From: an uncultured Bacteroidales bacterium
Lineage (GTDB): Bacteria; Bacteroidota; Bacteroidia; Bacteroidales; Muribaculaceae
Length of the DNA: 64,000 nt
NCBI GenBank assembly: GCA_902760865.1
Contig: CACWID010000002.1
Span: 1 to 64,000 of the forward strand
Direction of reading: 5' to 3'
Every line of letters starts with the position of its first letter. The first letter of the stretch is position 1. Of the stretch, positions 10,718 through 38,357 are shown piece by piece. The position numbers were made by a program, and so were the translations under genes. The notes beneath the pieces are model-generated. The model did no database searches. It saw only the letters and a program-made list of their open reading frames with translations, and was not told the DNA's origin.

Positions 10718-10843
10718 CTCCCGACAAACCGACAGAAACAGACAGCCCGTTGACAACCCTCAATCCTCCATAAACTGTGGGTGACTCACAACAGGCTGTT
10801 TTTATTTCATTCAAAACACATCAACATTAACCTATCATTTCAA

Positions 10844-13204: not shown

Positions 13205-13224
13205 CACCATCTCATCACTCTTAT

Positions 13225-13267
13225 AAACAAGCAGGACTGCCACTTGACGTGGCAGTCCTACTTGTTT
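13225..13267. terminator. Bidirectional terminator between convergent genes
   Basis: AAACAAG, one mismatch, AGGACTGCCAC pairs with GTGGCAGTCCT, one mismatch, CTTGTTT around a 5-base loop. It sits between the plus-strand nuclease gene (stop 13204) and minus-strand rpiB (stop 13289) and can serve both. Confidence 0.85.
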
Positions 13268-13288
13268 AAACGATTTATTATCAATGAT

Positions 13289-21901: not shown

Positions 21902-22957
21902 TTACCGTTCAAAGACCGCCACCAGCGGGTAGTGGTCGCTGTCACCCGCCTTGTCGCGCCGGCAGGACAGGGCCTTCATGTCACCGCGATAGAGGATGTG
22001 GTCGATTTTTACATACATGTGGTGGGCGTTGAAGGTGTAGGTAGGTCCGAAGCCCGTTTCGGCCCACGCGTCGCGCATATCGTCGCCACAGACCGTGCGG
22101 TAGGTGAACGAGCCCGGGGTGTCGTTCATGTCGCCCATGACGATGACATCGCCGGGGGTATCGTCCAGCACCTGCCTGATGGCCTGGGCCTGACGCACAT
22201 GGTTACGGAAGCCGACATCCAGCTTGCTGGCCACCGACTTGATGCGGCCCTTGCGGTCGGAGGGCACATTCATCGACTCGATGACCTTGGTGTCGTTATG
22301 GGTGAACCGCAGCGAGCTCAGGTGCATGTTGATGACACGCAGGTCACCACCCGGGGCCTCCACATCCCACACCTTGATGAAATAGCCCAAGGTGTCCTGA
22401 GTGAGGACGGGCGGCGTCAACTCGGTGAAGGGATACTTTGACAGGATGCCCACGTCATAGAAATGCTTCTTGCGGTAAGGATATTTCTTGTAGAGTTCCT
22501 CGAGCATCGGCTTGACCGGAGCAAGCTGCTCGAAGGGGAAATAGACCAGGCCCTCCTGAATCACGACAATGTCGGCATTCTGGTCCAGGATGTAGCGCAG
22601 CGACTCGCTCGGCTTGCCGTCGTTGCGATTCCAGTTGAACTCGGTGACGTTCATCGTCAGCACCGAGAGCTGGGTTTTGCCCTCTTCGGCAGTCGGTTGA
22701 ATCAGGGTAAAAGGCGATATCAGGCGCAGCGTGGGCCAGGAGAGCATCAAGGCACCAACGACGAGAACAGCGGCGCGCCACTGCTTGAAAAGGGCCATCA
22801 GCGCCAGGGCCGCCAGGGCTACCAGCGTAACGACAGGCAGCGCCAACGACGCGAGTGAAGGCAGCGTCCATATCGTGGGGTCGACGCGTCCGCCATAGGC
22901 GGCAAACAGCAGCGCAAAGGCGACGATGATTGAGATGAATCTAAAGATGTGTTTCAT
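21902..22957 (-). CDS. Endonuclease/exonuclease/phosphatase-family membrane protein
   Basis: The protein has 351 residues. The first ~80 residues contain three hydrophobic helices (FISIIVAFALLFAAYGG, then LPVVTLVALAALALMALF and AVLVVGALMLSW). The rest is an EEP-fold domain: LSVLTMNVTEFNWNRN, VIQEGLVYFP (metal-binding Glu), VIVMGDMNDTPGSF and the C-terminal SDHYPLVAVF (catalytic Asp-His). The active site probably faces the periplasm. Substrates in this family include DNA, phospholipids and phosphoesters; which applies is not evident. Confidence 0.85.
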   Translation of the reverse strand: MKHIFRFISIIVAFALLFAAYGGRVDPTIWTLPSLASLALPVVTLVALAALALMALFKQWRAAVLVVGALMLSWPTLRLISPFTLIQPTAEEGKTQLSVLTMNVTEFNWNRNDGKPSESLRYILDQNADIVVIQEGLVYFPFEQLAPVKPMLEELYKKYPYRKKHFYDVGILSKYPFTELTPPVLTQDTLGYFIKVWDVEAPGGDLRVINMHLSSLRFTHNDTKVIESMNVPSDRKGRIKSVASKLDVGFRNHVRQAQAIRQVLDDTPGDVIVMGDMNDTPGSFTYRTVCGDDMRDAWAETGFGPTYTFNAHHMYVKIDHILYRGDMKALSCRRDKAGDSDHYPLVAVFER

Positions 22958-24124: not shown

Positions 24125-24349
24125 TTACATCTTGGACTTCAGCATCCCGATGACGCGGTCATAGTCGGTCATCTCGGCGATTTCCTCGGGCTCCAGCTCG
24201 ATGTCAAACTCCTCCTCAAGCTCAGAGGCGAGCGTCAAGTGGCGCAGCGAGTCCCAACGGGGACAGTTCTTCTGGGTGGTATCGGTCGAAACATCGTCCA
24301 TCTCAAACACCTCACGCATGATGGCCAAAACTTTGTCTTCTAAATTCAT
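24125..24349 (-). CDS. Acyl carrier protein paired with the FkbH-like gene
   Basis: The protein has 74 residues and is acidic. The phosphopantetheine site is in PRWDSLRHL (Ser of DSL), followed by the usual helix ASELEEEFDIELEPEE. Its start codon overlaps the FkbH-like stop by four bases (ATGA), so the two are translationally coupled. In glyceryl-ACP systems the FkbH enzyme loads its own small ACP, which fits this arrangement. A fatty-acid-synthesis ACP is less likely, because it is not next to fab genes. Confidence 0.88.
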   Translation of the reverse strand: MNLEDKVLAIMREVFEMDDVSTDTTQKNCPRWDSLRHLTLASELEEEFDIELEPEEIAEMTDYDRVIGMLKSKM

Positions 24350-25938
24350 AACACTCTGATATTGTAATAATTCTTGATTTCACAAACTTGGTTCAGCTCC
24401 ATCTCATAGTGCTTGGCACCGTCGGGCGCGGTGCTGACGCAGGTCATGCCCATGCGGTCAAAAAAGTCAGACGTCTGACCATTCTTGGCCGTGGGCAGGT
24501 AGTCGGCCGTCACGCGGCGGTAGCCATCGAGCCTCAACAAGTTGAGCACCGTCTTGAAGAAGGCCTCCTCGATGCCTTTGCCCAGGATGCGGCAACTGAG
24601 CAGCAGCGTGTCGATGTTCACCGTCACGTCGTCCACGTCCTCGAGGAACATCGTGGCCGTGATGCCGTTGTCGCCGAAGCGGTCAGACACGCTCATGCAA
24701 TAGATGTGCCAGCCGGCTTCCAGGCGCTGACGGACGTCTGCTTCGTTATAGCGCCTCGTCGTCAGGTTGAACTGATTGGTCTTCTGGGTCATCTGGGCGA
24801 TGCGCGGCAGGTTGTGGCTGTCGGCGGGCATGATGTCCAGCTGCAGGTCCAGGCTGTAGAGGTAGCTCTCCATGTCGGCAAAGCGGGACTGCTCGGCCTG
24901 TCGCATGGCATTGGCACGGTACTGCTCCGCCTTGGCGCGGTCCTCGGCAGTCACCTGGTAGATGCGGAAGTATTTCTCCACCAGCTGTTTGAAGAAAGGC
25001 ATCAGCTGATAGGGCTTGGCAGGGAAATCAGGCACTTCGACCTGAGGAAGCATCTGGCGGATGAGCTCGCGCTCGGCAGGATTGTCATCGACAAAGACCA
25101 TGCTATCCAGGCCGATGTTGAGTTCGGCGGCCAGCTCGCGCAGATTGGTTGCCTTGTCCTGCCAGTTGATGCGGCGTGCGCTGAAGTTCTCCCCGCGCAG
25201 CACCATGTTGGGATTCTGAGACCAAGCCTCGAGCACGTCGGCCTCATTGTTCTTGCTGCAGACAGCCAAGATCACACCCATGCCGGAGAGCTGCAGAAGC
25301 GCTTGCTGCCAGTAAGTATAGGCCTTGCCGGGATAGTCGCCGCCCAGCTTGATGCCGTCGATGCCGTCCTCGCCCAGCACCCCACCCCACAGGGTGTTGT
25401 CCAGGTCGAGCACGAGACACTTCTTGCGCATCAAGGCCAGTTCGCCTTCCAGCCGTTGCCACCATGCCTGGAAATCGCGTGCCAGCTTGGGGTTGAGCAG
25501 CGTCTGCGACATGAGGTAGTATTTCCAGTCGAGCAGCGTTGCCGCATCATAGCGCGACGTGAACTCGCTGAAGTCCACCAGCTTGACATTGGGACGGGAC
25601 ATCGCCAGCTGCGCGGCATGACGGTTGAACTCGGCCACCGACTCGGCGACAGCCGTCTCGTTCCCGGCCAAGCGCAGCACGAAGGTATTGACCAGTGTGA
25701 AAACGATGAACTGCTTGCCCGAGTCAACCGATGACAGCACCAGGTCCAGGCGGTCACGATAGGAGTCCAACTCCTCGGCCAGGCGGCCACTGTCGGCATT
25801 GACCGGCACCTGGTAGAACCAGATGTAGCGGTCGGCATCGGCCGGCACCACACTGATGTCGCCATAGCCCGAATAGGCCATGCCATCATAGCCGAAGAAG
25901 GGCTCAACCGTCTGATTGCGAAAGACAAAAGTCGTCAT
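24346..25938 (-). CDS. FkbH-like HAD-IIIC enzyme (glyceryl-ACP synthase type)
   Basis: The protein has 530 residues from the ATG at 25938. The longer frame upstream runs into the neighbouring gene. The HAD catalytic motif is LDLDNTLWGG (Asp178, Asp180), then CSKNNEADV (about 227-235) and FVDDNPAERE (about 282-291). This is the pattern of HAD-superfamily IIIC / FkbH proteins. The C-terminal third resembles a GNAT-like acyltransferase fold (NQFNLTTRRYNEADV, SDRFGDNGITATMFLED, LLSCRILGKGIEEAFF). Characterised relatives take D-1,3-bisphosphoglycerate, dephosphorylate it and load a glyceryl group on an ACP. Here it is coupled to an ACP and next to a glycosyltransferase, so the glyceryl unit may end up on the polysaccharide. 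Confidence 0.87.
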   Translation of the reverse strand: MTTFVFRNQTVEPFFGYDGMAYSGYGDISVVPADADRYIWFYQVPVNADSGRLAEELDSYRDRLDLVLSSVDSGKQFIVFTLVNTFVLRLAGNETAVAESVAEFNRHAAQLAMSRPNVKLVDFSEFTSRYDAATLLDWKYYLMSQTLLNPKLARDFQAWWQRLEGELALMRKKCLVLDLDNTLWGGVLGEDGIDGIKLGGDYPGKAYTYWQQALLQLSGMGVILAVCSKNNEADVLEAWSQNPNMVLRGENFSARRINWQDKATNLRELAAELNIGLDSMVFVDDNPAERELIRQMLPQVEVPDFPAKPYQLMPFFKQLVEKYFRIYQVTAEDRAKAEQYRANAMRQAEQSRFADMESYLYSLDLQLDIMPADSHNLPRIAQMTQKTNQFNLTTRRYNEADVRQRLEAGWHIYCMSVSDRFGDNGITATMFLEDVDDVTVNIDTLLLSCRILGKGIEEAFFKTVLNLLRLDGYRRVTADYLPTAKNGQTSDFFDRMGMTCVSTAPDGAKHYEMELNQVCEIKNYYNIRVL

Positions 25939-25949
25939 TTTCCTACTGA

Positions 25950-26957
25950 TTATGATTTCTTTAACACACGATAAGCCTTGCTCATCATGGACCACAAGCC
26001 AGGACGCATCATCAAGGCATGGATGACTTTCCACTTCATGCCGTGGTAGTTGCTCTCGGGCCCTACACACGGGAAGGGGTAGATTCCGCTCTGGCGCATG
26101 CGCTGCACGGCATCATCGACGCAGCCGCAGGTCAACGCCTTGGTCATGGCAAAGAAGAGATACACGTTTCTCAGGCCAGGGACGCTGGCGGGAGCCTTGC
26201 GGCTATTCTCCGCCTCGTAGCGGCGGATGGTGGCGTCAATCATCGCGGCAGAGTCAATCTGGCTGAAGATGCGGCGCTTCAGGTGCTGAACATCGACATT
26301 GTGCATCGCGCTGTCATCGCGCTTGACGTAGCAATAGGGCGCAGCGGCGGTGCAAACCATGCGACCGGCAGCGAGCATGAACTCGGCAATCAGCGCCCCG
26401 TCCTCACAGACGATGAGCGACGTGTCAAAGCGCCAATGGTGCGATTCCAGATAGGAACGCTTGACCAGGAAGCGCCAGACATAAGGGGTCAGACTGTGTC
26501 CCTCGAGATACTCAGCTCCGGTCATTACCGCGCCTGACGCATCGGCGGCCTCGCTGCCAGGCGAGACGGCGCCCATGGCGTCAATGCTCTTGTAGCCGAA
26601 CTGCAGCACGTCCAGGTCCTCGTCCACTGCCTGACGGAGCAGTGAGGACATCGCGCCATGCTCCAGGTAGTCGTCACTGTCGACAAACTGCACATAGCGG
26701 CCGTGGGCCTCGTCGAGCGCGTGGTTGCGCGCTGCACTGACGCCGGCATTGTCCTGGATGATGAGATGAACCTGGGGATGGAGCAGCGTGAAGGCCGCCA
26801 CCCGGTCGCGGCTACCGTCGGTCGAGCCATCGTCCACCACCAGCACCTCGTAGGCGTCATCGGGCAGCCCCTGAGCAATAATCGAGCTCAAGCAGCGATC
26901 CAGATAACCCTCTGTATTATAGACAGGGACGATGTATGTCAGCAGCAGTTCACTCAT
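25950..26957 (-). CDS. Glycosyltransferase family 2
   Basis: The protein has 335 residues with an N-terminal GT-A domain: LTYIVPVYNTEGYLDRCL, VLVVDDGSTDGS, and the DXD-type metal site in YVQFVDSDDYLE. It is an inverting sugar transferase acting at the cytoplasmic face on a lipid-linked glycan. Its start overlaps the stop of the VOC-fold gene by 8 bases and it precedes the FkbH-like gene by 12 bases, so it belongs to the acyl-modification operon. Donor and acceptor are unknown. Confidence 0.92.
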   Translation of the reverse strand: MSELLLTYIVPVYNTEGYLDRCLSSIIAQGLPDDAYEVLVVDDGSTDGSRDRVAAFTLLHPQVHLIIQDNAGVSAARNHALDEAHGRYVQFVDSDDYLEHGAMSSLLRQAVDEDLDVLQFGYKSIDAMGAVSPGSEAADASGAVMTGAEYLEGHSLTPYVWRFLVKRSYLESHHWRFDTSLIVCEDGALIAEFMLAAGRMVCTAAAPYCYVKRDDSAMHNVDVQHLKRRIFSQIDSAAMIDATIRRYEAENSRKAPASVPGLRNVYLFFAMTKALTCGCVDDAVQRMRQSGIYPFPCVGPESNYHGMKWKVIHALMMRPGLWSMMSKAYRVLKKS

Positions 26958-27369
26958 GGTTTGCGGCAGTCTCTACCAGCTCGATGAGTCCGGTATGCTT
27001 CTGGAACAAAAAGATGACCCTGCGACCGTTCATGGCACAGGCAGGCACAGCCGGCTTCACCGGCAAGAAACGCTGGCGACGCAGGTCGCTGACAGCGGCG
27101 TCCAGGTCGTCCACCTCATAGCACAGGTGATAGGGCGACACGCCGACAGCCTGGAGCGTCCTCGACACCGGGCTCTGCTCGTCAAGCGGTTCCAACAGTT
27201 CCACCCGCGGCGCCCCGTCCTTGTCCAGGAAGCAGACACGGACGTGCTGCAACGGGTCGTCGATGACCGCCGAAGCCTTGTAGCCCATCGCCGTATAGAA
27301 GGTCTGGGTCTTGGCGATGTCACGGCAAGCGATGCCGATGTGGTGGAAGGAGAGTCCAGCAGTGTCCAT
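26950..27369 (-). CDS. VOC-fold protein, methylmalonyl-CoA epimerase / glyoxalase-like
   Basis: The protein has 139 residues from the ATG at 27369; an in-frame TTG at 27378 overlaps the previous stop. The vicinal-oxygen-chelate pattern is complete: HHIGIACRD (His10) and VELLEP (Glu57/60) in the first half, YHLCYEVDDLD (His81) and GLIELVE (Glu130) in the second. This matches a metal site with two His and two acidic ligands, as in methylmalonyl-CoA epimerase. It follows a KASIII-like gene by 6 bases and overlaps the next gene. The likely role is enolisation or epimerisation at the alpha carbon of an ACP- or CoA-bound acyl chain; this is inferred from context. Confidence 0.75.
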   Translation of the reverse strand: MDTAGLSFHHIGIACRDIAKTQTFYTAMGYKASAVIDDPLQHVRVCFLDKDGAPRVELLEPLDEQSPVSRTLQAVGVSPYHLCYEVDDLDAAVSDLRRQRFLPVKPAVPACAMNGRRVIFLFQKHTGLIELVETAANHE

Positions 27370-27374
27370 CGTCG

Positions 27375-28424
27375 TCAATAGTCAATAACGGGCGAGACCT
27401 TGCAGTCATTCATGTCAAGCATGGCAGCCGCCCAACTCAGTCCGGCGCCGAATGCGCTCAGCACCACCGTTGACCTGCCGTCGAGCTTGCCGACCAGTTC
27501 ACTGGATATAGTCAAGGGCACCGACGCGCTGCTCGTGTTGCCGTACTTGTTGATGCAGAAAGGCACCCTCGAAGGGTCGGCCTTAAGTTTCTTGACAAAG
27601 AAGTCCATCATGAAGCGGTTGGCCTGGTGGAAGACCAGGTAGTCCACGTCATCGATGGTCTTGTCGGTTACCTTGAGCAGCTGCTTGATGCTCTTGGGGA
27701 CCTTGCTGATGGCAAAGTTGAAGACATCCATGCCGTCCATGAACACCTCCAGGTCACTGCGGATGTTGCCCTCTTCCTGCTCGCGCTCCACACACGACTC
27801 AGGCGTGATGGGATGGCGCATGCCAGCCTCAATCTTGAGGACATTCTCGCCGCTGCCGTCGGTGTAGAACATGAACGTGGAATCGCCAAAGTCGCCCTTC
27901 TCGACGAGCGTGGCCGTACCCGCGTCGCCGTAGAGCGGCCAGTCCACCTTGTCGCGGCGGTTGACAATCTTGGAGAACGTCTCGCCGTCGAGCAGCAGCA
28001 CGCGGTTCACACCCGGCATCGAAGCGTAGGCATAGGCCGTGCTCAGCGCGAAGAGATAGCCCGAACAGCCCAGCGAGATGTCAAAGCACAACGTCTCGCG
28101 CGGCAGTCCCAGCCGGTGCTGCAACAGGCACGACGTGGCAGGGATGCGGTAGTCGGCCGTCTGACTCATGAACAGGAGCACGTCGATGCTCCCGGGCTCG
28201 ATGTCATTGTCGGCCATGAGCTGCAGCGCAGCCTTATAGCACAGGTCACTCGCCGTCACATCGCTCGCAGCGATGCGTCGCTGCTCGATGCCGATGTTAT
28301 GGATCGTCTTCTCTATTTCCTCCTCCGGGATGAGATATCCCAGGTCCTTATTGTACACGACATCAGGCGGGACGCAGGCGCTAATCGCCTTGATGCCCAC
28401 CCCGTGAAAAGTCAATGTTGCCAT
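27375..28424 (-). CDS. KASIII-like (FabH-type) ketoacyl-ACP synthase A
   Basis: The protein has 349 residues with the catalytic triad of the family: Cys120 in SLGCSGY, His266 in VFHQANR and Asn296 in KYGNTSS. It catalyses a Claisen-type condensation or acyl transfer from CoA/ACP. It is longer than housekeeping FabH (~320) and lies outside any fab cluster. Its partner ACP (28515-28757) is just upstream, and the second KASIII-like protein at 32551 is a paralogue. Homologues in tetronate pathways join a glyceryl-ACP to a ketoacyl chain, and others make hydroxyacyl groups for sugar N-acylation; either would fit here. Confidence 0.92.
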   Translation of the reverse strand: MATLTFHGVGIKAISACVPPDVVYNKDLGYLIPEEEIEKTIHNIGIEQRRIAASDVTASDLCYKAALQLMADNDIEPGSIDVLLFMSQTADYRIPATSCLLQHRLGLPRETLCFDISLGCSGYLFALSTAYAYASMPGVNRVLLLDGETFSKIVNRRDKVDWPLYGDAGTATLVEKGDFGDSTFMFYTDGSGENVLKIEAGMRHPITPESCVEREQEEGNIRSDLEVFMDGMDVFNFAISKVPKSIKQLLKVTDKTIDDVDYLVFHQANRFMMDFFVKKLKADPSRVPFCINKYGNTSSASVPLTISSELVGKLDGRSTVVLSAFGAGLSWAAAMLDMNDCKVSPVIDY

Positions 28425-28514
28425 ACAGACAAACGATTAATGCATTGATATAACAAAATACAAAACAGCCTGCCATCATCACAAGGCAAGCCGTCAACAG
28501 CTATCGAAGGTGTG

Positions 28515-28757
28515 TTATTCCTCTTCCTCCATCCTGGCCATGGCAATGTGATACAGGTCCTCGACAGTAGAGCTGTTGCGAATATCGTCACCTCGAAATT
28601 CGACATCATACTCCTCGTCGATCATTGCGATTACCGACAATGCAACGAGTGAAGACCATTCCTCCAAGTCCTTGAACCGGGTCGTGGCTGTTATCGTGTC
28701 AGAGTCTGTCTCATCAAACAGCTCTGCGAAATTCTCTATGAATTGTTCCAAATCCAT
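28515..28757 (-). CDS. Acyl carrier protein, WSSL type (A)
   Basis: The protein has 80 residues and is acidic. The phosphopantetheine region is EEWSSLVALSVIAMIDEEYD: the usual DSL is SSL, but the modifiable Ser is kept. The N-terminus MDLEQFIENFAELFDETDSD is close to the ACP at 35333 (MNIEEFIENFASQLDETAPE), so the two are paralogues. It is placed 90 bases before the KASIII-like gene and follows a promoter box. Confidence 0.88.
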   Translation of the reverse strand: MDLEQFIENFAELFDETDSDTITATTRFKDLEEWSSLVALSVIAMIDEEYDVEFRGDDIRNSSTVEDLYHIAMARMEEEE

Positions 28758-28812
28758 TACGTACGTCTCTATAACGATAACGTAAAAAATCTAAAGATAT
28801 TTTTTACGGCCC

Positions 28813-28821
28813 GCAAAATTA
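28813..28821 (-). promoter_or_regulatory. Candidate -7 promoter box for the ACP-KASIII operon
   Basis: On the minus strand 28821-28813 reads TAATTTTGC, matching TAnnTTTG, 56 bases before the ACP start at 28757. It lies in a 148-base A/T-rich gap, the natural start of the operon running to 23084. No -33 TTTG at the right spacing is seen. Confidence 0.5.
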
Positions 28822-28905
28822 CATAAAAAAAATTATCGGCGCACCATTTTAGACATTTTTATTACCAAATGTAGATTCTTGACGCAGGTGCGGCGCCCGA
28901 TGGCC

Positions 28906-29547
28906 TCAAAAATCGAACTTGCGAGCCGGCACACCCAGGTAGGTGCTATTGTTGCGCGGCGTGGTCATGAGCACGCTGTTGGCGCCCAGCGTCACCCCGT
29001 CGCCGATGGTCATACCCTGGAGCACCACGCAGGCCGCTCCCAGCAGGTTGTTGTTGCCGATGGTGATGCCGCCCGAGAGGTGGGCACCCGGCATCAACCC
29101 ATTGAAATCACCGATGGTGTTGTCGTGGCCCACGACGACATGGTCGTTGATCAGGTTGAAACTGCCGATGGTCACGTCACACGAGATCATGCAGTGGTTC
29201 TGGATGATGTTGCCCTCGCCCATCTTGACCGTGTCGCGATCGACCCAGAAGAGCGACGGGTCAATCAGGTTGGGGAAGGTGATGAGCGGATTGCTGATGC
29301 TCTCACGGATGCGGCGCACGGCCCTGTTCTCGTTGATGGCGATGGCCACGGCCAGCGGCTCGGAAGCCTTGGTGAGCAGTTCCATGCCACCCAATACCGT
29401 TCCATAGCTCGACACCTGGGTGCCCGCAGGCTTGGTGTCGTCACAGAAACCGATCAGATGCCAGTCACCGCCAGCGGCATTGATGCGGCGAATCAGGCAC
29501 GCCACCTCCTTGCCGAAACCACCGGCTCCATATATTGCAATGTTCAT
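28906..29547 (-). CDS. NeuD/PglD-like hexapeptide acyltransferase
   Basis: The protein has 213 residues. The N-terminal Rossmann-like part IAIYGAGGFGKEVACLI binds the nucleotide sugar. The C-terminal left-handed beta-helix has hexapeptide repeats (GNIIQNHCMISCDVTIGSFN onward) and ends in GVPARKFDF. It keeps the first His of the PglD active site (VVGHDNTIGDF), but the second His position is Asn (FNGLMPG). It is very similar to the second half of the fused protein at 36463-37737. It lies directly downstream of the aminotransferase, the classical order for N-acylating a 4-amino sugar. Confidence 0.88.
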   Translation of the reverse strand: MNIAIYGAGGFGKEVACLIRRINAAGGDWHLIGFCDDTKPAGTQVSSYGTVLGGMELLTKASEPLAVAIAINENRAVRRIRESISNPLITFPNLIDPSLFWVDRDTVKMGEGNIIQNHCMISCDVTIGSFNLINDHVVVGHDNTIGDFNGLMPGAHLSGGITIGNNNLLGAACVVLQGMTIGDGVTLGANSVLMTTPRNNSTYLGVPARKFDF

Positions 29548-29597
29548 TTCAGTTCAGTTAATCATTATACTTGAATTCGCCACTACTCTTTCTGTCT

Positions 29598-30740
29598 TCA
29601 CTTGCAGCAAGAGATGATTTCCCTGGCCACACGCTCGACATCCTCGTCGCTCACCCAGGGACCGCTGGGCAGGCACAAGCCCATCGTGAACAGCTTCTCG
29701 CTGACGCCGTTGACATAGGCCGGGGCACCGCTGAACACGGGCTGGGTGTGCATCGGCTTCCACAGCGGGCGAGACTCGATATTGCAGGACTCCAGATGCA
29801 GGCGGATGGTGTCGTAGTCAGTGCCCGTCTTCACGGGATCAACCAGGATGGTGTTGAGCCAGTAGTTGGCGTCGCAGCGCTCGTCGGGGTTGGTGTGAAC
29901 CGTGATGCCATCGACGCCAGCAAAGAGTTCCACATAGCGGCCACACAGGTGCTTGTGGTGTGCCAGGTGCTCGTCCAGGACGGTCATCTGTCCGCGTCCG
30001 ATGCCGGCACAGATGTTGCTCATGCGGTAATTGTAGCCGATTTCCTTGTGGAGGTAGTAAGGCATGGGTTCGCGCGACTGAGTGGCATAGAACATGGTCT
30101 TCTTCTTGGTCGCCTCGTCGGGGCAGATGAGGGCGCCACCGCCACTGGTAGTGATCATCTTGTTGCCGTTGAAGCTCATGATACCGAAGTCGCCGAAGGT
30201 GCCGCACAGTTGCCCACGGTAGCGCGAGCCAAAGGCCTCGGCCGAATCCTCCACGACAGGAATCTCGTAGCGGCGAGCAATCTCCATGATGTCGTCAATC
30301 CTGGCGGGCATGCCATAGAGATAGACGGGGATGATGGCCTTGGGTTTGCGGCCCGTCTTGGCGATGCGGTCCTTGATGGCCTCCTCGAGCAGGTTGGGGT
30401 CTATGTTCCAGCTATCAGGCTCACTGTCGACGAACACGGGCACGCCACCTTGATAAACGACCGGGTTGGCACTGGCCGAGAACGTCATCGACTGGCAGAT
30501 CACCTCGTCGTCGCGGCCAACGCCCAGGTTGACCAACGCCAGGTGGATTGCCGCAGTGCCCGAACTGAGCGCCACGACATACTTGCCCTCGCCGCACAGC
30601 TGCTCTAGGTCCTGTTCAAAGCCGTTGACATTCGGTCCCAAGGGTACTACCCAGTTGGTGTCGAAAGCCTCTTGGATATATTTCATCTCCTGGCCGCTCA
30701 TGTGGGCCAGACAAAGTAAAATCCTGTTATTGTTTGCCAT
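29598..30740 (-). CDS. DegT/DnrJ/EryC1 sugar aminotransferase, PglE-like
   Basis: This PLP-dependent enzyme aminates a keto-sugar nucleotide, typically at C4 of a UDP-4-keto-6-deoxy sugar. The protein has 380 residues, normal for the family. Signatures are ILLCLAHMSGQEMKYIQEAF at the N-terminus, ALSSGTAAIHLAL for cofactor phosphate binding, VVEDSAEAFGS, and the PLP-binding Lys194 in SFNGNKMITTSGGG. The next gene is a PglD-like acyltransferase. The 4,6-dehydratase that would supply the keto sugar is not in this window. Confidence 0.92.
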   Translation of the reverse strand: MANNNRILLCLAHMSGQEMKYIQEAFDTNWVVPLGPNVNGFEQDLEQLCGEGKYVVALSSGTAAIHLALVNLGVGRDDEVICQSMTFSASANPVVYQGGVPVFVDSEPDSWNIDPNLLEEAIKDRIAKTGRKPKAIIPVYLYGMPARIDDIMEIARRYEIPVVEDSAEAFGSRYRGQLCGTFGDFGIMSFNGNKMITTSGGGALICPDEATKKKTMFYATQSREPMPYYLHKEIGYNYRMSNICAGIGRGQMTVLDEHLAHHKHLCGRYVELFAGVDGITVHTNPDERCDANYWLNTILVDPVKTGTDYDTIRLHLESCNIESRPLWKPMHTQPVFSGAPAYVNGVSEKLFTMGLCLPSGPWVSDEDVERVAREIISCCK

Positions 30741-30751
30741 ATATCTTGCTT

Positions 30752-31336
30752 TTAAATCATTGATTCACTTTCAGATGCGTGTCCGGCATAGACCCTGCGG
30801 CCTACTGCCAAATCGCGGATGAGCACCTCGCTCACTGCTGCCTGTTCCTTGTCGGAGTGCGGCACATTGGTCACCGTCTTCACTCCGGGAATAAAGCTGT
30901 CGCCGGTGAACAGCGCGTCACCGATGACCCAGGTCACACACGACGGGCTGTGGCCTGGCGTGAAGACCGCACGGGCCGCGATGCCGTCGAACAGCGGCAC
31001 CTCGTCCCCGTCCTCGACCAGGCGGACGACTTCGGTGTCATCGAGCACAAACGGCTCGCCATAATACTTCGAGAAGTTCAGTTTGTCGCTGAGCAACTCC
31101 TCCTTGCCGGCCCGGGTGGTATAAACCAGTGCCTTAGGGAACATGGCCGCCAGCACATTCAGGCCGTAGATATGGTCAAAGTGGGCATGAGTGAGCAGCA
31201 CGCCGCAGAGGGGGCCGTCAATCATCGGCAGGATGCGGTCCACGTCGCCACAATCCACCAGCCACGATTTGCCCTCATGGACAATCACATAGCTGCATGA
31301 CTTGAACACCGTATTAACGACCTGCCTGATTTCCAC
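30752..31336 (-). CDS. Metallo-beta-lactamase-fold hydrolase
   Basis: The protein has 194 residues. The metal-binding motif is LLTHAHFDHIYGL (HxHxDH), followed by VFTPGHSPSCVTWVIGDALFTGDSF. It starts with GTG at 31336, since the next ATG would remove the first strands of the fold. MBL-fold proteins hydrolyse lactones, thioesters or glutathione conjugates. In an ACP cluster a thioesterase role (releasing a wrong or finished acyl chain) is a reasonable guess, but nothing in the sequence fixes the substrate. Confidence 0.85.
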   Translation of the reverse strand: MEIRQVVNTVFKSCSYVIVHEGKSWLVDCGDVDRILPMIDGPLCGVLLTHAHFDHIYGLNVLAAMFPKALVYTTRAGKEELLSDKLNFSKYYGEPFVLDDTEVVRLVEDGDEVPLFDGIAARAVFTPGHSPSCVTWVIGDALFTGDSFIPGVKTVTNVPHSDKEQAAVSEVLIRDLAVGRRVYAGHASESESMI

Positions 31337-31416
31337 TCAATCAATCTTTATTAACTCTTTATATAAAGAACGTTAACTGGCGTAAAATATTGCACACGCC
31401 TACTCAACAGAGTCCA

Positions 31417-32517
31417 TTACCTCGCGTGGAGGTAGAAAACAGAGCCCTTGGGATAGACCTTCTTGTTGGTCTGGACCTTGGAACATTGGCCCTGGCGAGC
31501 GCGCTCCACGACCTCGTCAAGATGCTCGGCGAACATGGGACCGGCCATGAGCTGCGGCCCCTCGATGGCCGGGACGAGGTTGAACTCGATGAAGAGCGGT
31601 TCCCCGTCGGGGTCGACCGTGACGTCCCACCCCACATAGTCGAAATAGGGCAGCTTGCTGTGCATCGCCAGCAGGGTATCTATCACCTTGTGGTAGCAGG
31701 GCACGACCAGGTTCTCGACGCCCGTCTCGCGCTTGAGCGACGAAATCTCCATGTGCTTGAAGCGGAAGACGCGGTCATCCACATGGCCGTCGCGGTCGAT
31801 CAGGCAGGTGCCGCCGCCCTTCGACGTGTTGTCCTTGACGGCGCCCTTGCCGCCGAAGCGTAGCATCGAATAGGGGTACAGGAACTCACACTTGCCCTCG
31901 AGCGTGCGATAAGTGTAGAGACGCATCGAGTTGAGCGACGTGGGATTGACACGCTGCAGCTCGGGGTGCTGACGCGCCTTTTCCTGGACGATGAAGTTGA
32001 TGTCATAGCGCGAGAAGAGGGCGTTCAGGCTGTCGGCACGGGTGTCGGTGATCTGGTCCACGCCGTCGCCGTTGCACGTCTCGACAGTGGGCTTGATCAT
32101 CATCTCGCCCGAGTAGTTCCTCACGGCCTCGATGGCCTCGTCGCGCGAAATCTCCTGGCCCTCACGGTAGAAGTGGCCGTGCATATTCTTGACCACCGTC
32201 AGCGGCTGCCGCACCATGGGGAACAAGTCGCTGTAGATGTTCTTGTCGAGATAGGCGTTGATGAAGTCATAGCGGTTGAGCGCCGGCACGACGAAGAAAT
32301 AGTACACGTCCATCGACAGGTAGCGGTCGCTCTCGACACCGCTCAGGCGCGAGAAGTAGTCGGCAAACATCATCGACACCTTGAAACCGCGCTCGGCATA
32401 GTAGGGCGACAATTCCTTCTTGCGGGCCTTGTAGTCAAAGTCGGGGGGCATCACATGATCCTTGAAATACCAGTCACCCCAATAAAACTCCTTGTTTGTA
32501 TTGATATATTCAGCCAT
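31417..32517 (-). CDS. ATP-grasp protein of the sugar-transfer-associated family
   Basis: The protein has 366 residues from the ATG at 32517; the frame also opens at a TTG two codons earlier. The body fits the ATP-grasp family linked to sugar transfer: GEMMIKPTVETCNGDGV (nucleotide-binding Lys), NFIVQEKARQHPELQRVNP, SLNSMRLYTYRT and YVGWDVTVDPDGEPLFIEFN with the metal-binding Glu-Phe-Asn. ATP-grasp enzymes join a carboxylate to an amine or thiol through an acyl phosphate. Here it could couple an amino acid or hydroxy-acid to an amino sugar. It lies between the two halves of the acyl cluster. Confidence 0.8.
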   Translation of the reverse strand: MAEYINTNKEFYWGDWYFKDHVMPPDFDYKARKKELSPYYAERGFKVSMMFADYFSRLSGVESDRYLSMDVYYFFVVPALNRYDFINAYLDKNIYSDLFPMVRQPLTVVKNMHGHFYREGQEISRDEAIEAVRNYSGEMMIKPTVETCNGDGVDQITDTRADSLNALFSRYDINFIVQEKARQHPELQRVNPTSLNSMRLYTYRTLEGKCEFLYPYSMLRFGGKGAVKDNTSKGGGTCLIDRDGHVDDRVFRFKHMEISSLKRETGVENLVVPCYHKVIDTLLAMHSKLPYFDYVGWDVTVDPDGEPLFIEFNLVPAIEGPQLMAGPMFAEHLDEVVERARQGQCSKVQTNKKVYPKGSVFYLHAR

Positions 32518-32550
32518 CCTCAATCACTATTAACAAATCATACAAAAACA

Positions 32551-33615
32551 CTAGTAGTCCAGAACGTCAACCATCGTCATGCCGCCGGCATAGAACTCCA
32601 TGCTGGCCCATGCCAGCCCCACGCCGAAGCCACAGGCCAGGCAGTGGCGCTCGCCCGCCGCCGACAGTTGCTCACCGCAGCGGGTCACCATCGTCAAGGG
32701 AATCGACGCACTGGTAACGTTGCCATATTCCTCCAGGCAATAGGGGGTCTTCTCGGCAGGAATCTTCACCGCCTTGCGAATCTTCTCGTCGATGAACTTA
32801 TTGGCCTGGTGGAGCAACAGCAGGTCAACGCTCTCAACATCGATGTTGAAGGTCTCGATGAGTTCCTTCAACGAGCGGGGCGGCTGCTTGATGGCAAAGC
32901 CGAACACATCCATGCCGTTGACAATCATGTCCACGCCGCGACGATAGGTGCCGGGCGACACCTCTTTCTCCTCGAGCGCCTCGGTCGTGACCGGATTGCG
33001 GATGCCCCCATAGGGAGCCCACACGGCGTCAAAGCCGCTGCCGTCCACACCGAACATGAAGTTCATCGGGCGCGCGCTGTCAGGGGCATACTCAAGAGCC
33101 GTCGCCGTGGCGGCGTCACCGAACAGGGGCCGTACCGACGGATCACGCGGGTTGCGGTTGCGCGTGTTGGTCTCGGCGGCGACCAGGATGGCGCGCTTGA
33201 ACGTGCCGTGTGACATGAGCGAAGCGACGATGCTCATGCCATAGACCCATCCCGAGCAGCCGAAGGGGAGGTCAAACACGCAGCAGTCACTGCGCAGTTG
33301 CAAGCGGTCCTGCAGGATGCACGCCGTCTGGGGCGCGATGTAGTCACGCGAGGTGCAGACATAGGCGAAGCAATCGACCTCCTGGGCCGTCCAGCCCATC
33401 TTCTCGAGGAGAGCCTCTACAGCCTTGACCGTGAGGTCAGAAGCCGTGGTCTGATCGTCCACCTTGTGGTGGCGCTCGATACCCGTCGAAGCGATTACCT
33501 TGAGGGCATCGTTCTCGTCCTTGTAGATGGGAAGCGTGCGGTTGTCCTCGACGGTCGACGGCACACAGGCACTCATGCCCGCCAGACGCACATGATTGAT
33601 GGTTAATTGTGACAT
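32551..33615 (-). CDS. KASIII-like (FabH-type) ketoacyl-ACP synthase B
   Basis: The protein has 354 residues, paralogous to the synthase at 27375. The catalytic residues are intact: Cys120 in PFGCSGW, His269 in LLHQANK and Asn299 in EYGNVTS. It lies 5 bases after the acyl ligase gene and is followed by the ATP-grasp gene. With the ligase and two ACPs upstream it forms a loading-and-condensing unit. Whether it condenses with malonyl-ACP or acts as an acyltransferase, as some KASIII-like proteins do, cannot be decided from sequence. Confidence 0.92.
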   Translation of the reverse strand: MSQLTINHVRLAGMSACVPSTVEDNRTLPIYKDENDALKVIASTGIERHHKVDDQTTASDLTVKAVEALLEKMGWTAQEVDCFAYVCTSRDYIAPQTACILQDRLQLRSDCCVFDLPFGCSGWVYGMSIVASLMSHGTFKRAILVAAETNTRNRNPRDPSVRPLFGDAATATALEYAPDSARPMNFMFGVDGSGFDAVWAPYGGIRNPVTTEALEEKEVSPGTYRRGVDMIVNGMDVFGFAIKQPPRSLKELIETFNIDVESVDLLLLHQANKFIDEKIRKAVKIPAEKTPYCLEEYGNVTSASIPLTMVTRCGEQLSAAGERHCLACGFGVGLAWASMEFYAGGMTMVDVLDY

Positions 33616-33620
33616 ATTCT

Positions 33621-35087
33621 CTATGATTTGAGTTTCAAACGTTGCACTTTGCCCGATGCCGTGCGGGGTATCTCATCGACCCACTCCCACAGCACGGGAA
33701 TCTCGTGGGGCGGCAGCATGCCCGCCAGACGGGACTTGATATCGGCAATCTCCAGCGCCGACTTGCCGCGGACCAGATAGGCCTTGGGCACCTCGCCCAG
33801 CACGCCCTGGGGGTCGGCGACGGCGACACAGGCACAGTCGGCAATGCCCAGCGCCAGGATGGCGTCCTCGATGGTCTGCGGAGCGACTTTCTCACCGCCC
33901 ACGTTGATAAGTTCCTTCTTGCGGCCTGTCAGGTAGTAGTTGCCGTCCTCGTCGCGGTGGCCCCAGTCACCGGTGCGGAACCAGTCGCCGTGGAAAGCAT
34001 CCACGTTATCCTGGGGCAGGAAATAGGACCGGCATACCATGTTGCCGCGCACACAGATCTCGCCGTCAATGCCGGGAGCTAACGGATGGCCCTGCTCGTC
34101 CATGACACAGGCCTCCACCAGACCGGAGGAGGGACGTCCCACGCTCTGCAGCACCGCCGCGGCACTGTGGAACTCGGTGAACAGCGCACGCGAAGCCTCG
34201 GTCAGCCCGTAGTGCATGCACAGGCGTGTCGTCGGGAACAGTTCCATGAGGAGCTGTTTGTCCTCGACTGGGAGCGCGGCGCTGCCCATTTCAATATAAT
34301 GCAGCTGGTCGGCAAACTTCGCGATGCGCCGGCCGCTCAGGCGCTTGATGTACTGCCACACCGCCGGCACCATGCCGAAGCCCGTCACCCGCTCGCTCTC
34401 AAGGACCGAGAAGAACGACTTGAGGTTGGCAAAATTGCCCACCAGCACCAGGGTGCCGCCCGCCGTGAGCACGCAGCGCAGCCGTCCCAAGCCGAAGGAG
34501 TGGCTCAACGGCAGCGCCAGAGCCTCGACGTCGTCGCTGCAAGTGCCGATAAAGCCGTTGGTGTTCGCTGCCGAGCCCGCGATATTGGCATGAGAGAGGC
34601 AGACCCCCTTGGGCGCCCCTGTCGTGCCTGTGGTGAACATCACGTCGGCAACATCAGTCGCCGCCAGCGAGCGATTGACGGCAGCCGGGACATCGGTGTC
34701 GCCGAGAGCCATTTCCTCAAAACGAATGGCCCGGCACCCGCCGTCCACCTGACGGCTGCCAAACGACACCCGCGGCTTGACGATGCCAGCGATATAGTCC
34801 AGGCGCTCCTGGGGCGAGGCGGCATCGACCACGACATTGACAATGCCCAGGACGTGGGCGGCAAAGTAGAGATAAACGAACTCCACCTCCTTCTCGGCCG
34901 TCAAGAGGATGCGGTCGCCCGCACTCAGGCCGAGCGACTGCAGATAGACAGCAGTCGCCCCTATCATCGACACCAGGCGGGCATAAGACACACGCTGAGT
35001 GCCGTCAACAAGGGCAATTTTGTCGGGCGTGCATTGCGCATGTCCGACAATTTCACACAGCACGGGGCTGTGGGGAGTGTCAATCAT
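33621..35087 (-). CDS. AMP-forming acyl-CoA/acyl-ACP ligase
   Basis: This adenylate-forming enzyme activates a carboxylic acid and passes it to CoA or an ACP. The protein has 488 residues. The P-loop motif is FTTGTTGAPKGV (151-162), then MHYGLTEASRALFTEF, RTGDWGHRDEDGNYYLTGRKKELI, and the C-terminal catalytic Lys in RTASGKVQRLKLKS. The gene's start overlaps the end of the ACP gene upstream by 8 bases. This coupling strongly suggests that the ACP is its acceptor. The substrate acid is unknown. Confidence 0.92.
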   Translation of the reverse strand: MIDTPHSPVLCEIVGHAQCTPDKIALVDGTQRVSYARLVSMIGATAVYLQSLGLSAGDRILLTAEKEVEFVYLYFAAHVLGIVNVVVDAASPQERLDYIAGIVKPRVSFGSRQVDGGCRAIRFEEMALGDTDVPAAVNRSLAATDVADVMFTTGTTGAPKGVCLSHANIAGSAANTNGFIGTCSDDVEALALPLSHSFGLGRLRCVLTAGGTLVLVGNFANLKSFFSVLESERVTGFGMVPAVWQYIKRLSGRRIAKFADQLHYIEMGSAALPVEDKQLLMELFPTTRLCMHYGLTEASRALFTEFHSAAAVLQSVGRPSSGLVEACVMDEQGHPLAPGIDGEICVRGNMVCRSYFLPQDNVDAFHGDWFRTGDWGHRDEDGNYYLTGRKKELINVGGEKVAPQTIEDAILALGIADCACVAVADPQGVLGEVPKAYLVRGKSALEIADIKSRLAGMLPPHEIPVLWEWVDEIPRTASGKVQRLKLKS

Positions 35088-35316
35088 TTGACGGGGTGAG
35101 TTTGTTCACTTCGGCGACAATCGACTCGACGGACGTCAAGTCAAAAAGGTCCTCGAGGGGGAACTCGACTTGCAGTTCCTCCTCAAGCGTGCTGATAATC
35201 GCCAGATTGCCCACAGAATCCCACTCGGGGATGTCCCCCGACGACAACTCATCGGTGATGACGTCGAGAGGCACGTTCAGCACGCGGGCAATGATTTCCT
35301 TGACACGAGATTCCAT
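35080..35316 (-). CDS. Acyl carrier protein, WDSV type, coupled to the acyl ligase
   Basis: The protein has 78 residues from the ATG at 35316; longer readings run into the previous ACP gene. The phosphopantetheine Ser is in IPEWDSVGNLAIISTLEEEL, with MESRVKEIIARVLNVPLDVI at the N-terminus. It lies 16 bases after the WSSL-type ACP and overlaps the acyl ligase by 8 bases. Confidence 0.88.
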   Translation of the reverse strand: MESRVKEIIARVLNVPLDVITDELSSGDIPEWDSVGNLAIISTLEEELQVEFPLEDLFDLTSVESIVAEVNKLTPSND

Positions 35317-35332
35317 CAATCGGCTACAGGGA

Positions 35333-35566
35333 TTAACGGCGTTTTTTCTCAACGACAGCAAACAGGTCCTGAATCGTGTCGGACTTGAGGATGTCGTTGC
35401 CCTTGATGATGACGTCATACTCGTCGTCAACCATCGCGATGATGGACAGCGCGGTCAACGATGACCACTCATCCAGCTCCTTGAACCGCGTTTCAGCAGT
35501 AATTTCCTCTGGGGCCGTCTCGTCGAGTTGAGACGCGAAGTTCTCGATAAATTCTTCGATATTCAT
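35333..35566 (-). CDS. Acyl carrier protein, WSSL type (B)
   Basis: The protein has 77 residues. The carrier site is DEWSSLTALSIIAMVDDEYD, with SSL in place of DSL as in the paralogue at 28515. It is the first gene after a well-formed promoter and so opens the operon containing a second ACP, the acyl ligase and KASIII B. Confidence 0.9.
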   Translation of the reverse strand: MNIEEFIENFASQLDETAPEEITAETRFKELDEWSSLTALSIIAMVDDEYDVIIKGNDILKSDTIQDLFAVVEKKRR

Positions 35567-35636
35567 AACTATAAAATGAGATCTGATAAATGAGCTTGCC
35601 GCCGACTTTGATCACACTAGAATACATTTCAGGCAG

Positions 35637-35670
35637 GCAAAAGTACACAGATTATTTAAAAAACGGCAAA
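35637..35670 (-). promoter_or_regulatory. Bacteroidetes-type promoter for the ACP/ligase/KASIII operon
   Basis: On the minus strand TTTG (35670-35667) is followed after 21 bases by TACTTTTGC (35645-35637), fitting TTTG-N19-21-TAnnTTTG. It lies about 70 bases upstream of the first ACP start (35566), in the gap left after the SDR gene. This is the best promoter match inside the polysaccharide locus. Confidence 0.7.
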
Positions 35671-35682
35671 AATGCAGACTTA

Positions 35683-36435
35683 TTATATGGAAAAACCGCC
35701 ATCGATGACCAAATCATGCCCCGTGAGCCAGCTCGAGGCGTCACTGAGCAGATAGATAGCGCCATTGGCGATGTCATCGGGACGTCCATAACGTCCCAAG
35801 GGGTATTTCTTGGCGTCCTCGGCCAGCTGCTCCTCGGTGATGGTGCCACGATGGATCAGCGGTGTGTCCACCATGCCGGGGCAGATGCTGTTGACGCGGA
35901 TGCGGCGCGGCGAGAACTCGCGTGCGGCATAGCGCATGACAGAGTTGAGCGCGGCCTTGGAAGCGCCATACACGCCATTGCCGGGCATGAAGCTGTGCGT
36001 GCCGCCGATGGAGGCCAACAGCACCACAGAGGCCCCCTTCTGGAGCAGTTTCTTCTTGAAGAGCAGGCGCATCAGTTCCACAGGGGCGAAGAAATTGACG
36101 TCGAACATCTCGTCGAACTTCTCGCGGGTGCCGAACTGAATGGGCAGCGTAGTCGAGTTGCCGGCACACAGCACGGCGCCGTTCAGCGGAGGCAATGCTG
36201 CCAGCAGTTGTTTCACCTGGTCATCATCGGTCAGGTCGGCAGTGACCATTGCGGCGGGCGGTGTCGCCAGCTGCTGGGCGGTCTCTTGCAGGCGGCCCTC
36301 GTCACGCGCCGTGATGGCCACGGCAGCGCCCATGCGAGAACAGGCAATGGCGGTCTCGCGTCCTATGCCTGACGACGCACCGGTCACCAGGATGGTCTTC
36401 CCCTCGAGCGAGAAGGGATTGAAAGTCGCTTCCAT
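35683..36435 (-). CDS. Short-chain dehydrogenase/reductase (ketoacyl-ACP reductase-like)
   Basis: The protein has 250 residues. The NAD(P) motif is ILVTGASSGIGRETA. Catalytic residues are Ser142 (LLASIGG) and Tyr156/Lys160 (YGASKAAL). The C-terminus DASSWLTGHDLVIDGGFSI is typical of FabG-type SDRs. With KASIII-like enzymes and ACPs in the next operon it most likely reduces a beta-ketoacyl-ACP to the hydroxyacyl form. Reduction of a sugar intermediate is the alternative. It lies 27 bases after the fused acyltransferase. Confidence 0.88.
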   Translation of the reverse strand: MEATFNPFSLEGKTILVTGASSGIGRETAIACSRMGAAVAITARDEGRLQETAQQLATPPAAMVTADLTDDDQVKQLLAALPPLNGAVLCAGNSTTLPIQFGTREKFDEMFDVNFFAPVELMRLLFKKKLLQKGASVVLLASIGGTHSFMPGNGVYGASKAALNSVMRYAAREFSPRRIRVNSICPGMVDTPLIHRGTITEEQLAEDAKKYPLGRYGRPDDIANGAIYLLSDASSWLTGHDLVIDGGFSI

Positions 36436-36462: not shown

Positions 36463-37737
36463 TTATTTGAAATCAAACTTCTTGGCAGGCACGCCGATAT
36501 AGGTCATGCCATCCTTGGGCTTGGTCATCAGCACACTGCCAGCGCCCAGGGTGACATGGCTGCCGATCTGGACCTTCTGCAGCACGACGCTGTCCACGCC
36601 CAAGAGGTTGCAGTGGCCCATCTGCACCGATCCCGACAAACGCACGCCGGGCATCAGCACATTGAAGTCGCCCACAATCACGTCATGGCCCAGCACGTTG
36701 GAACCGTTGAGCACGTTGAAGCTGCCGACCACCACGTCGCAGGTGGCGCTGCACCCGTCCTGGATGATGTTGCCCTGCCCCATCGTGAAGGTCTCGTCGT
36801 CGAGCACCTTGAAGGACGGCGCTATCAGGTTGGGGAAGGTGATGAGCGGATTGTTGATGCGCTCATGGATGAGCTTGCGTGACATCGGGTCGCCCACGGC
36901 GATGGCGAGTGCCAGCGGCTCACTGACGGCGTTGAGTTCCTCCATGCCGCCCAGCACATAGCCGTAGTGGGAGACCGGCGAGCCGACCTCCTTGCTGTCA
37001 TCATAGAAACCGACCATGTTCCAGCGCTCACCACAAGAGTTGTTGATGCGCCTGATGCCGCCGGCCACCTCGCGTCCCAGTCCGCCGGCGCCATAGATGG
37101 CGATATTGCGTACGCCTTGTCGGCTACGGGAAGAGCTGGAGTGATTCTGGGAAGAGTTGCGCGTTATCACGCGGCACGGGTTGCCATAGGCCACCACGCC
37201 GTCGGGGATGTCGTGCAGCACGACACTGCCGGCGCCGACGATGCTCCACCGCCCGACTTTCACACCCGGGATCACGACTGCCGACGCACCGATCCAGGCG
37301 CCCTCGCCGATGTGGACATTGCCGCACAGCGTGGCCTGGGGCGAGATGTGGACATAGTCGCCCAGGCTGCACTCGTGGTCGATTGTCGCACCCGTGTTGA
37401 TAATGCAGTGCCGCCCTACCCTCGCGTCGCTCTGGATGATGGCACCCTGCATGATGACAGAGCCCTCGCCGATGGAGGCAAAGGGAGACACCATGGCCGA
37501 CGGGTGCTGGGCCGTGATGAATTCACACCCCAACCGCTCGACGATCTGCTTGCGGTAGACATTATTGCCGACGCTCACCAGCACCGGCGACTCCCCGTTC
37601 CACTTGTGCAGAACGGGTATGGATAACAGGTCATTGATTGCGGGATCATCATCAAACAGGGCGTCAACCTTCACGCCCGCCGCCTGCAAGACGTCGATGA
37701 TGACTTTTGCGTGTCCGCTTGCTCCGTAGAGGTACAT
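36463..37737 (-). CDS. Fusion of two PglD/NeuD-like sugar acyltransferases
   Basis: The protein has 424 residues, twice the usual length. Residues 1-193 are a complete PglD-like enzyme: YLYGASGHAKVIIDVL, then ATIDHECSLGDYVHISPQA with both active-site His (121 and 130), ending GNPCRVITR. Residues 194-209 are a Ser-rich linker (NSSQNHSSSSRSRQG). Residues 210-424 are a second complete Rossmann plus hexapeptide unit (IAIYGAGGLGREVAGGIRR to IGVPAKKFDF), close to the separate protein at 28906. In that half only the first His is kept (VLGHDVIVGDF). The ATG overlaps the stop of the PglC-like gene (TGATG), so translation is coupled. Confidence 0.9.
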   Translation of the reverse strand: MYLYGASGHAKVIIDVLQAAGVKVDALFDDDPAINDLLSIPVLHKWNGESPVLVSVGNNVYRKQIVERLGCEFITAQHPSAMVSPFASIGEGSVIMQGAIIQSDARVGRHCIINTGATIDHECSLGDYVHISPQATLCGNVHIGEGAWIGASAVVIPGVKVGRWSIVGAGSVVLHDIPDGVVAYGNPCRVITRNSSQNHSSSSRSRQGVRNIAIYGAGGLGREVAGGIRRINNSCGERWNMVGFYDDSKEVGSPVSHYGYVLGGMEELNAVSEPLALAIAVGDPMSRKLIHERINNPLITFPNLIAPSFKVLDDETFTMGQGNIIQDGCSATCDVVVGSFNVLNGSNVLGHDVIVGDFNVLMPGVRLSGSVQMGHCNLLGVDSVVLQKVQIGSHVTLGAGSVLMTKPKDGMTYIGVPAKKFDFK

Positions 37738-38354: not shown

Positions 38355-38357
38355 CAC

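Follow-up and report, generated by a model that had tools for sequence, protein, structure and literature searches.

On contig CACWID010000002.1 of an uncultured Bacteroidales bacterium of the family Muribaculaceae (contig 2 of a 3.35-Mb genome in 61 contigs), the 64,000-nucleotide stretch analysed here (the window) contains a block of acyl carrier protein (ACP), ketoacyl synthase (KAS) and sugar-modifying genes, which occupies positions 24125-36435 and continues past this range to 38357. All genes of the block are intact and lie on the minus strand, neighbours overlapping by 1-8 bases at several joints. In the order of transcription, a small phosphoglycosyltransferase (PGT; 37737..38357; PF02397) is followed by two fused NeuD/PglD/VioB-type N-acyltransferases (PglD1-PglD2), a short-chain dehydrogenase/reductase (SDR), ACP1, ACP2, an AMP-forming carboxylic acid ligase, the KASIII-type synthase KASB, an ATP-grasp protein, a metallo-β-lactamase (MBL)-fold hydrolase and a DegT aminotransferase, and then by a third N-acyltransferase (PglD3), ACP3, a second KASIII (KASA), a VOC protein, a GT2 glycosyltransferase, an FkbH-like protein, ACP4, a membrane acyltransferase and an EEP-type gene. 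Families were assigned with Pfam and NCBIfam profiles, 20 proteins of the block region being scanned; the profiles recovered the four ACPs, two KASIII, AMP ligase, SDR, VOC, MBL, ATP-grasp and FkbH proteins listed in an initial annotation made from the sequence, as well as the sugar aminotransferase and sugar acyltransferases said to be interleaved with them (DegT and PglD3, with two more PglD domains just outside the range).

The evidence favours a division of the block into two separable lines over a single one, each line being composed of a PglD-type acyltransferase, an ACP with a "WSS" motif, a KASIII and a starter loader provided with its own "WDS" ACP. In module I the putative extension and hand-off ACP is ACP1 (35333..35566; EWSSL), the putative starter ACP is ACP2 (35080..35316; EWDSV), the loader is the AMP-forming ligase (33621..35087; PF00501/PF13193) and the synthase is KASB (32551..33615); the gene of the ligase, described in the initial annotation as coupled to an ACP, overlaps that of ACP2 by 8 bases. 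In module II, PglD3 (28906..29547), the putative extension and hand-off ACP3 (28515..28757; EWSSL) and KASA (27375..28424) are accompanied by the VOC protein (26950..27378; PF13669), by FkbH (24346..25938), a probable glyceryl-ACP synthase standing as the loader, and by the putative starter ACP4 (24125..24349; RWDSL), whose gene overlaps that of FkbH by 4 bases. Within the window the identity amounts to 54.5% between ACP1 and ACP3, 58.7% between PglD2 and PglD3 and 35.7% between KASA and KASB; ACP2 and ACP4 are 19-23% identical to ACP1 and ACP3, and 25% identical to each other. The SDR (35683..36435; PF13561), a probable 3-oxoacyl-ACP reductase, is the only SDR in the block.

All four ACPs belong to PF00550, each scoring above the cut-off, and both synthases to PF08541/PF08545; their Cys-His-Asn triads are intact, as had been reported (C120/H266/N296 in KASA, C120/H269/N299 in KASB), and the same triad is present in 145 of 145 related KASIII, as in condensing members of the family. 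The Ser-Tyr-Lys site of the SDR is likewise kept (S142/Y156/K160 in 90/90 aligned homologues). FkbH reaches 287 bits against TIGR01686 (cut-off 146.65), its DxD aspartates D187 and D189 (in DLDNT) are found in 67/67 homologues and its cysteine C236 (in CSKN) in 66/67, and it adjoins a stand-alone ACP, the combination expected of a member of this family. The VOC protein keeps its His and Glu residues and has solved structural relatives; its best NCBIfam match, the methylmalonyl-CoA epimerase family TIGR03081, gives 71.9 bits, below the cut-off of 114.95, and the protein is called here epimerase-like. A role of the KASIII proteins as acyltransferases, passing a ready-made acyl group to the sugar with no formation of C-C bonds, would have precedents in antibiotic pathways; it is made very unlikely by the invariant triad, to which we ascribe a decarboxylating role, and by the other acyltransferases already present, two of them membrane proteins and three of them PglD domains.

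Two further candidates concern the loaders. A methoxymalonyl-type extender unit was rejected, since no methyltransferase family and one SDR were found among the 20 scanned proteins; the methoxymalonyl-ACP pathway described in the tetronate paper requires, next to FkbH, an O-methyltransferase and a pair of dehydrogenases (PMC7489565). As to the ligase, its AlphaFold model (pLDDT 83) has aryl-, acyl- and malonyl-CoA ligases as nearest structures, feruloyl and MenE ligases included, and its HSFGLG motif lacks the Asp typical of domains that adenylate amino acids, which makes an amino acid starter somewhat less likely; this judgement is weakened by the best sequence match of the ligase, a nonribosomal peptide synthetase chain, and by the adenylation proteins of such synthetases among the structural matches.

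The proposed division of work between the two sorts of ACP can be followed in the residue preceding the phosphopantetheine Ser. Among 101 distinct ACPs adjoining a loader (66 of them adjoining FkbH, from the relatives and the window), 98 have Asp at this position and 3 have Asn; the 126 other ACPs lack Asp in 109 cases and have it in 16, one being unaligned. Fourteen of these 16 belong to loci without FkbH, mostly simple loci without any loader, where a single ACP presumably does both jobs. In two Parabacteroides distasonis loci held out as a test, 4/4 ACPs follow the rule.

A search with KASB of 150 relatives matched 60 at E<=1e-50, and 40 stretches were fetched from 40 of these (below, L numbers denote fetched stretches, or loci, and G numbers genomes, the present one being G000). 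As syntenic boundary marker, established by ortholog comparison across the genus, we used the putative EEP-type gene (21902..22957), which lies outside the pathway. Of 101 genomes of the genus, 38 (counting the present one) have an ortholog of it (at least 67% identity, the next match being at 46%), and KASA-VOC-FkbH-ACP4 stands beside it in all 38, so that the block is not a chance pile-up. Module I is present in 35 of the 38; both KASIII and all four ACPs lie on one stretch in 33 and over two contigs in one more (G002), and in G063 only the end of KASB and the ATP-grasp gene are visible, at a contig edge. The co-occurrence check suggested with the initial annotation has thus been run, and KASIII and ACP genes are retained together. 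In three congeners (G044, G071 and G086) module I is missing and module II is kept, the MBL gene directly following the SDR gene; the three form one nested group in midpoint-rooted trees of EEP (99/95) and of KASA plus FkbH (100/99), and because of this nested position a loss, rather than a gain, of module I is indicated: ACP1, ACP2, the ligase, KASB and the sugar-transfer-associated ATP-grasp protein (31417..32523; PF14397; a poor model, pLDDT 55) would most economically have disappeared in a single event, all five genes together. Accessory genes are variable, the MBL-fold hydrolase (30752..31336; PF00753) being without match in L038 and L040, and the membrane acyltransferase (23084-24103) between ACP4 and the EEP gene in L041, L051, L053 and L062; the GT2 glycosyltransferase (25950..26957; PF00535) lies between VOC and FkbH. 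A second EEP-type gene, 38% identical to the marker, occurs elsewhere in the same genome (G000:C10:37171-38235), and beside the cassette of congener G032 (L049:196-2519) lie an ACP gene and two additional KASIII genes, the latter branching separately in the KASIII tree.

Linkage extends beyond the genus, as seen in the neighbourhoods (up to 3.5 kb) of 145 distinct KASIII. Near the 68 KASA-like proteins (at least 53% identity) FkbH is found in 66 cases, VOC in 62 and an ACP4-like protein in 63; 37 of the 68 are at least 77% identical to KASA, and therefore not all are independent, and the 31 more distant relatives (<77%) have FkbH in 29, VOC in 25 and ACP4 in 26. The 34 relatives of KASB have the ligase, ACP1, ACP2 and ATP-grasp in 34/34 and FkbH in none; since all are more than 80% identical to KASB, they count as one lineage. 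In the KASIII tree, one set (99/89) comprises the five ligase-labelled rows together with L065, where a ligase is likewise close by, and seven FkbH-labelled rows fall in the KASB half, being the second KASIII genes of their loci. Among the best 80 of 424 relatives in a scan of named genomes with KASA, the set SDR-KASA-VOC-FkbH-ACP4, mostly with PglD and a hand-off ACP, occurs in many Bacteroidales metagenome-assembled genomes (MAGs), in Opitutales/Verrucomicrobia MAGs and in a single MAG labelled Sedimentibacter; Bacteroides fluxus, B. fragilis Q1F2 and a Treponema MAG carry a module II-like set that has no VOC match, and in B. fluxus and the Treponema MAG, on short contigs, there is no PglD match either. 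Module II-like sets stand without module I in B. fragilis Q1F2, B. fluxus and the Treponema and Opitutales MAGs, G005, G144 and P. distasonis have module I-like sets in loci from which FkbH is absent, and Flavobacterium suaedae and B. faecichinchillae possess a simpler set, PGT-PglD-ACP-KAS-SDR-DegT.

These distributions bear on two other explanations. In the first, the two KASIII act one after the other on the same chain in a serial pathway, the lone SDR reducing after each step, as has been suggested for the 3,5-dihydroxyhexanoyl group of Flavobacterium psychrophilum; this is consistent with the single SDR of the block, with L066-L068 and L071, where two KASIII accompany one FkbH, and with F. 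psychrophilum itself, where, as far as the published description goes, two synthases (wfpC and wfpE) are served by one ACP, a reductase and a PglD homologue (PMC6519341). It is rendered unlikely by the persistence of module II without module I, by module I-like sets lacking FkbH, and by the possession by each KASIII of its own WSS ACP and loader; two separable lines are accordingly favoured over the single pathway of the initial annotation, its dedicated character being retained. In the second, the genes make a lipid or a secondary metabolite and are merely sited in a polysaccharide cluster, as might be thought because AMP ligases, FkbH and KASIII are common in polyketide pathways. FkbH and a FabH-like enzyme are proposed to serve in the polyketide pathway of PMC7489565, but PGT (near the cassette in many relatives), PglD, DegT or glycosyltransferase genes are interleaved with the set in many relatives, outside the genus too, and this explanation is improbable in the extreme.

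The amino sugar as destination is suggested by the N-acyltransferases and by a fusion. PglD1-PglD2 (36463..37737; 424 aa; PglD_N twice) scores 362.3 bits over two stretches against TIGR03570 (cut-off 160.8), and PglD3, at 157.3 bits slightly below this cut-off, has the solved relatives 4m9c, 4m98 and VioB 7txp; the PglD histidines are kept almost throughout (His121 in 30/31 and His351 in 69/69 for PglD1-PglD2, His141 in 76/76 for PglD3). In L121, from a Tannerella MAG, a single 299-aa frame (1441-2337) joins PglD to a WSS ACP, a fusion unique among 4509 reading frames of at least 120 aa, which ties the WSS ACP to the N-acyltransferase; its neighbours are PGT, SDR, KAS, DegT and a 671-aa frame, a candidate PglF. 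The fusion could also serve as a single-protein substrate for testing N-acylation. It bears further on the idea that module II gives glyceroyl only, FkbH loading and PglD transferring directly while KASA acts elsewhere: glyceroyl is a rare substituent of Bacteroidota O-glycans, according to the part of the survey concerned (PMC12871550), and FkbH has been proposed to need just an ACP (PMC7489565, in the section concerned), but the linkage of KASA to FkbH in 66/68, the intact condensing triad, and the single PglD fusion, which carries a WSS ACP and not an FkbH-type ACP, make this decidedly unlikely.

The DegT aminotransferase (29598..30740; PF01041), which we take to be PglE-like, has as closest solved chains 1o61 and 4ztc, both named aminotransferases, and its best NCBIfam match is the LegC-family TIGR04181 (356.8 bits, below the cut-off of 420); it is a probable UDP-4-keto sugar C4 aminotransferase. 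The 4,6-dehydratase needed ahead of it is probably a PF02719 protein (a 671-aa frame) encoded on contig 17 of the same genome. Of the two acceptors left open by the initial annotation, the amino sugar, N-acylated by PglD as a nucleotide sugar, is the more probable one, ahead of the finished glycan.

From the gene content, residues, linkage, separability and the one PglD-ACP fusion we infer the reactions, substrates and products that follow. Two parallel acyl lines may make N-acyl groups for the 4-amino-4,6-dideoxy sugars of a lipid-linked glycan, a reading in which our belief slightly outweighs our doubt. In module I the ligase would load a free starter acid on ACP2; in module II, where the starter is probably glycerate, FkbH would load a glyceryl unit from 1,3-bisphosphoglycerate on ACP4, as proposed for Mad7/Mad8 (PMC7489565). 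KASB or KASA would then condense the starter with a malonyl unit on the WSS ACP (ACP1 or ACP3), the SDR would reduce the 3-oxo group, a PglD domain would take the 3-hydroxyacyl group off the WSS ACP and attach it to the amino group introduced by DegT, and the PGT, presumably of the PglC type, would start the glycan by loading the acylated sugar on the lipid carrier. The predicted product of module II is a 3,4,5-trihydroxypentanoyl (2-deoxypentonoyl) amide, the acyl group (C5H8O4) adding a calculated 132.04 Da, equal to that of an anhydropentose; the VOC protein perhaps epimerises C4, the carbon beside the ketone, a guess from its epimerase-like family. The fuller proposal, in which tetronate-style glyceryl-ACP chemistry (FkbH and KASIII) serves Bacteroidota and certain other bacteria to build a 2-deoxypentonoyl group, a linear acid of pentose composition that mass spectrometry would take for a pentose, for a surface-glycan amino sugar, a second line uses another starter, and the loaders are exchangeable, is put forward tentatively, as possible rather than probable. 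A plain N-hydroxybutyryl pathway is unlikely as the whole story, since neither FkbH nor a ligase is needed for one.

Against the two-line reading speak, besides the lone SDR and the loci with two KASIII on one FkbH line, several irregularities of distribution: PglD1-PglD2 is kept in the three genomes without module I, so that PglD2 is not exclusive to that module; L050 and L158 lack PglD3 at its usual position; KASA has no FkbH nearby in L108 and L121, and the VOC protein is without match in L117, L124 and L137; the Asp rule is broken inside FkbH loci, in L131 and in the extra KASIII set of L049. The candidate dehydratase lies on another contig, the roles of the VOC, MBL and ATP-grasp proteins are guesses, and the structural match of the ligase to aryl and acyl ligases does not name the acid. 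In a random sample of the phylum FkbH occurs in 25/296 genomes, own included, and besides the latter a KASIII lies within 6 kb of it in at least 3/24 (G354, G346 and G413, 33-35% identical to KASA); in a random sample of the order FkbH occurs in 28/295, own included, and a KASIII (E 1e-60) is near it in 1/27 others, KASA at 55% identity or more being found in two genomes (own and G507), both times beside FkbH. Given the KASA-FkbH linkage, and the sparse KASIII near sampled FkbH, KASA therefore predicts FkbH and not the reverse.

Elsewhere in the window, a cytidylyltransferase fused to a GFO/IDH/MocA oxidoreductase (45323-46657; CTP_transf_like and GFO_IDH_MocA) lies close to a LicD protein, a pair of glycerophosphotransferase-like proteins and an aminotransferase of class V, a neighbourhood which hints at a CDP-linked phospho-substituent; L108 has a 430-aa frame that begins in a similar way (12238-13530). 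Outside the polysaccharide block, three large proteins (87-2243, 8915-10717 and 10781-13204) carry C-terminal repeats that we take to be dockerin-like (e.g. GDVNGDGNVNISDVTALINYLL).

The surface glycans of gut Bacteroidales are important for recognition by the immune system and by phages, and many of their non-sugar substituents lack assignment. If the proposal holds, the loader gene beside a WDS ACP would reveal the starter acid that a strain puts on its glycan, PglD together with a WSS ACP would signal attachment to an amino sugar, and the loaders would be exchangeable parts diversifying glycan substituents; glyceryl-ACP chemistry, known from polyketides, would extend to glycans, and some of the 132-Da "pentoses" in glycan mass spectra might be acyl groups.

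The block can be compared with several known systems (published loci being compared on the portions of the papers that describe them). Among the papers listed in searches of the open-access literature, those for trihydroxypentanoyl groups included, none dealt with this gene set or reported FkbH together with KASIII in a locus for a glycan, and we found no description of glycerate-started acyl building for surface sugars. The tetronate genes mad7, mad8 and mad16 share an FkbH-like protein and a stand-alone ACP, proposed to supply glyceryl-ACP to a FabH-like enzyme, but this enzyme closes the tetronate on a polyketide with no sugar transfer (PMC7489565). Clostridium acetobutylicum CA_C2186-CA_C2199, proposed to produce a modified surface carbohydrate, shares an ATP-grasp protein, a glyoxylase, an ACP and an acetyltransferase+HAD protein, but its gene table has no KASIII and lists in its stead a NeuB-like synthase and a DUF4910 protein resembling a peptidase (PMC4000134). 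Two P. distasonis loci (NZ_OY725812.1 and NZ_OY725780.1) share a PglD-type acetyltransferase, an Asp-less hand-off ACP, a WDS ACP, an AMP-binding protein, a KASIII and an SDR, but are module I-like only, with ligases 25-27% identical to that of the window. The block has in one locus the KASIII, reductase, ACP, PglD/VioB acyltransferase and sugar aminotransferase of the VioS/WfpC type. In the Pseudomonas syringae viosamine island these are vioS, vioR, acp, vioB and vioA, to which N-3-hydroxybutyryl viosamine is attributed; the modified viosamine is absent when vioR or vioB is mutated. The island differs in having one KASIII, one ACP and no loader, and in serving a proteobacterial flagellin glycan (PMC3927599). 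The R1-group genes wfpC-wfpG of the F. psychrophilum O-polysaccharide share two 3-ketoacyl-ACP synthases, an ACP, a 3-ketoacyl-ACP reductase and PglD and PglC homologues, and have been put forward as the source of the 3,5-dihydroxyhexanoyl group, of known structure, on N4 of a bacillosamine-type sugar (Qui2NAc4N); they have one ACP against four, and the description on which the comparison rests does not name FkbH, an AMP ligase, a VOC or an ATP-grasp protein (PMC6519341). Both systems, together with the linkage and the PglD-ACP fusion, support the dedicated ACP-based acyl pathway for an amino sugar that the initial annotation had proposed. The combination that it had not recognised is, on this comparison, a new variant, of which simpler relatives (vioS/vioR/vioB/acp and wfpC-G) are already known.

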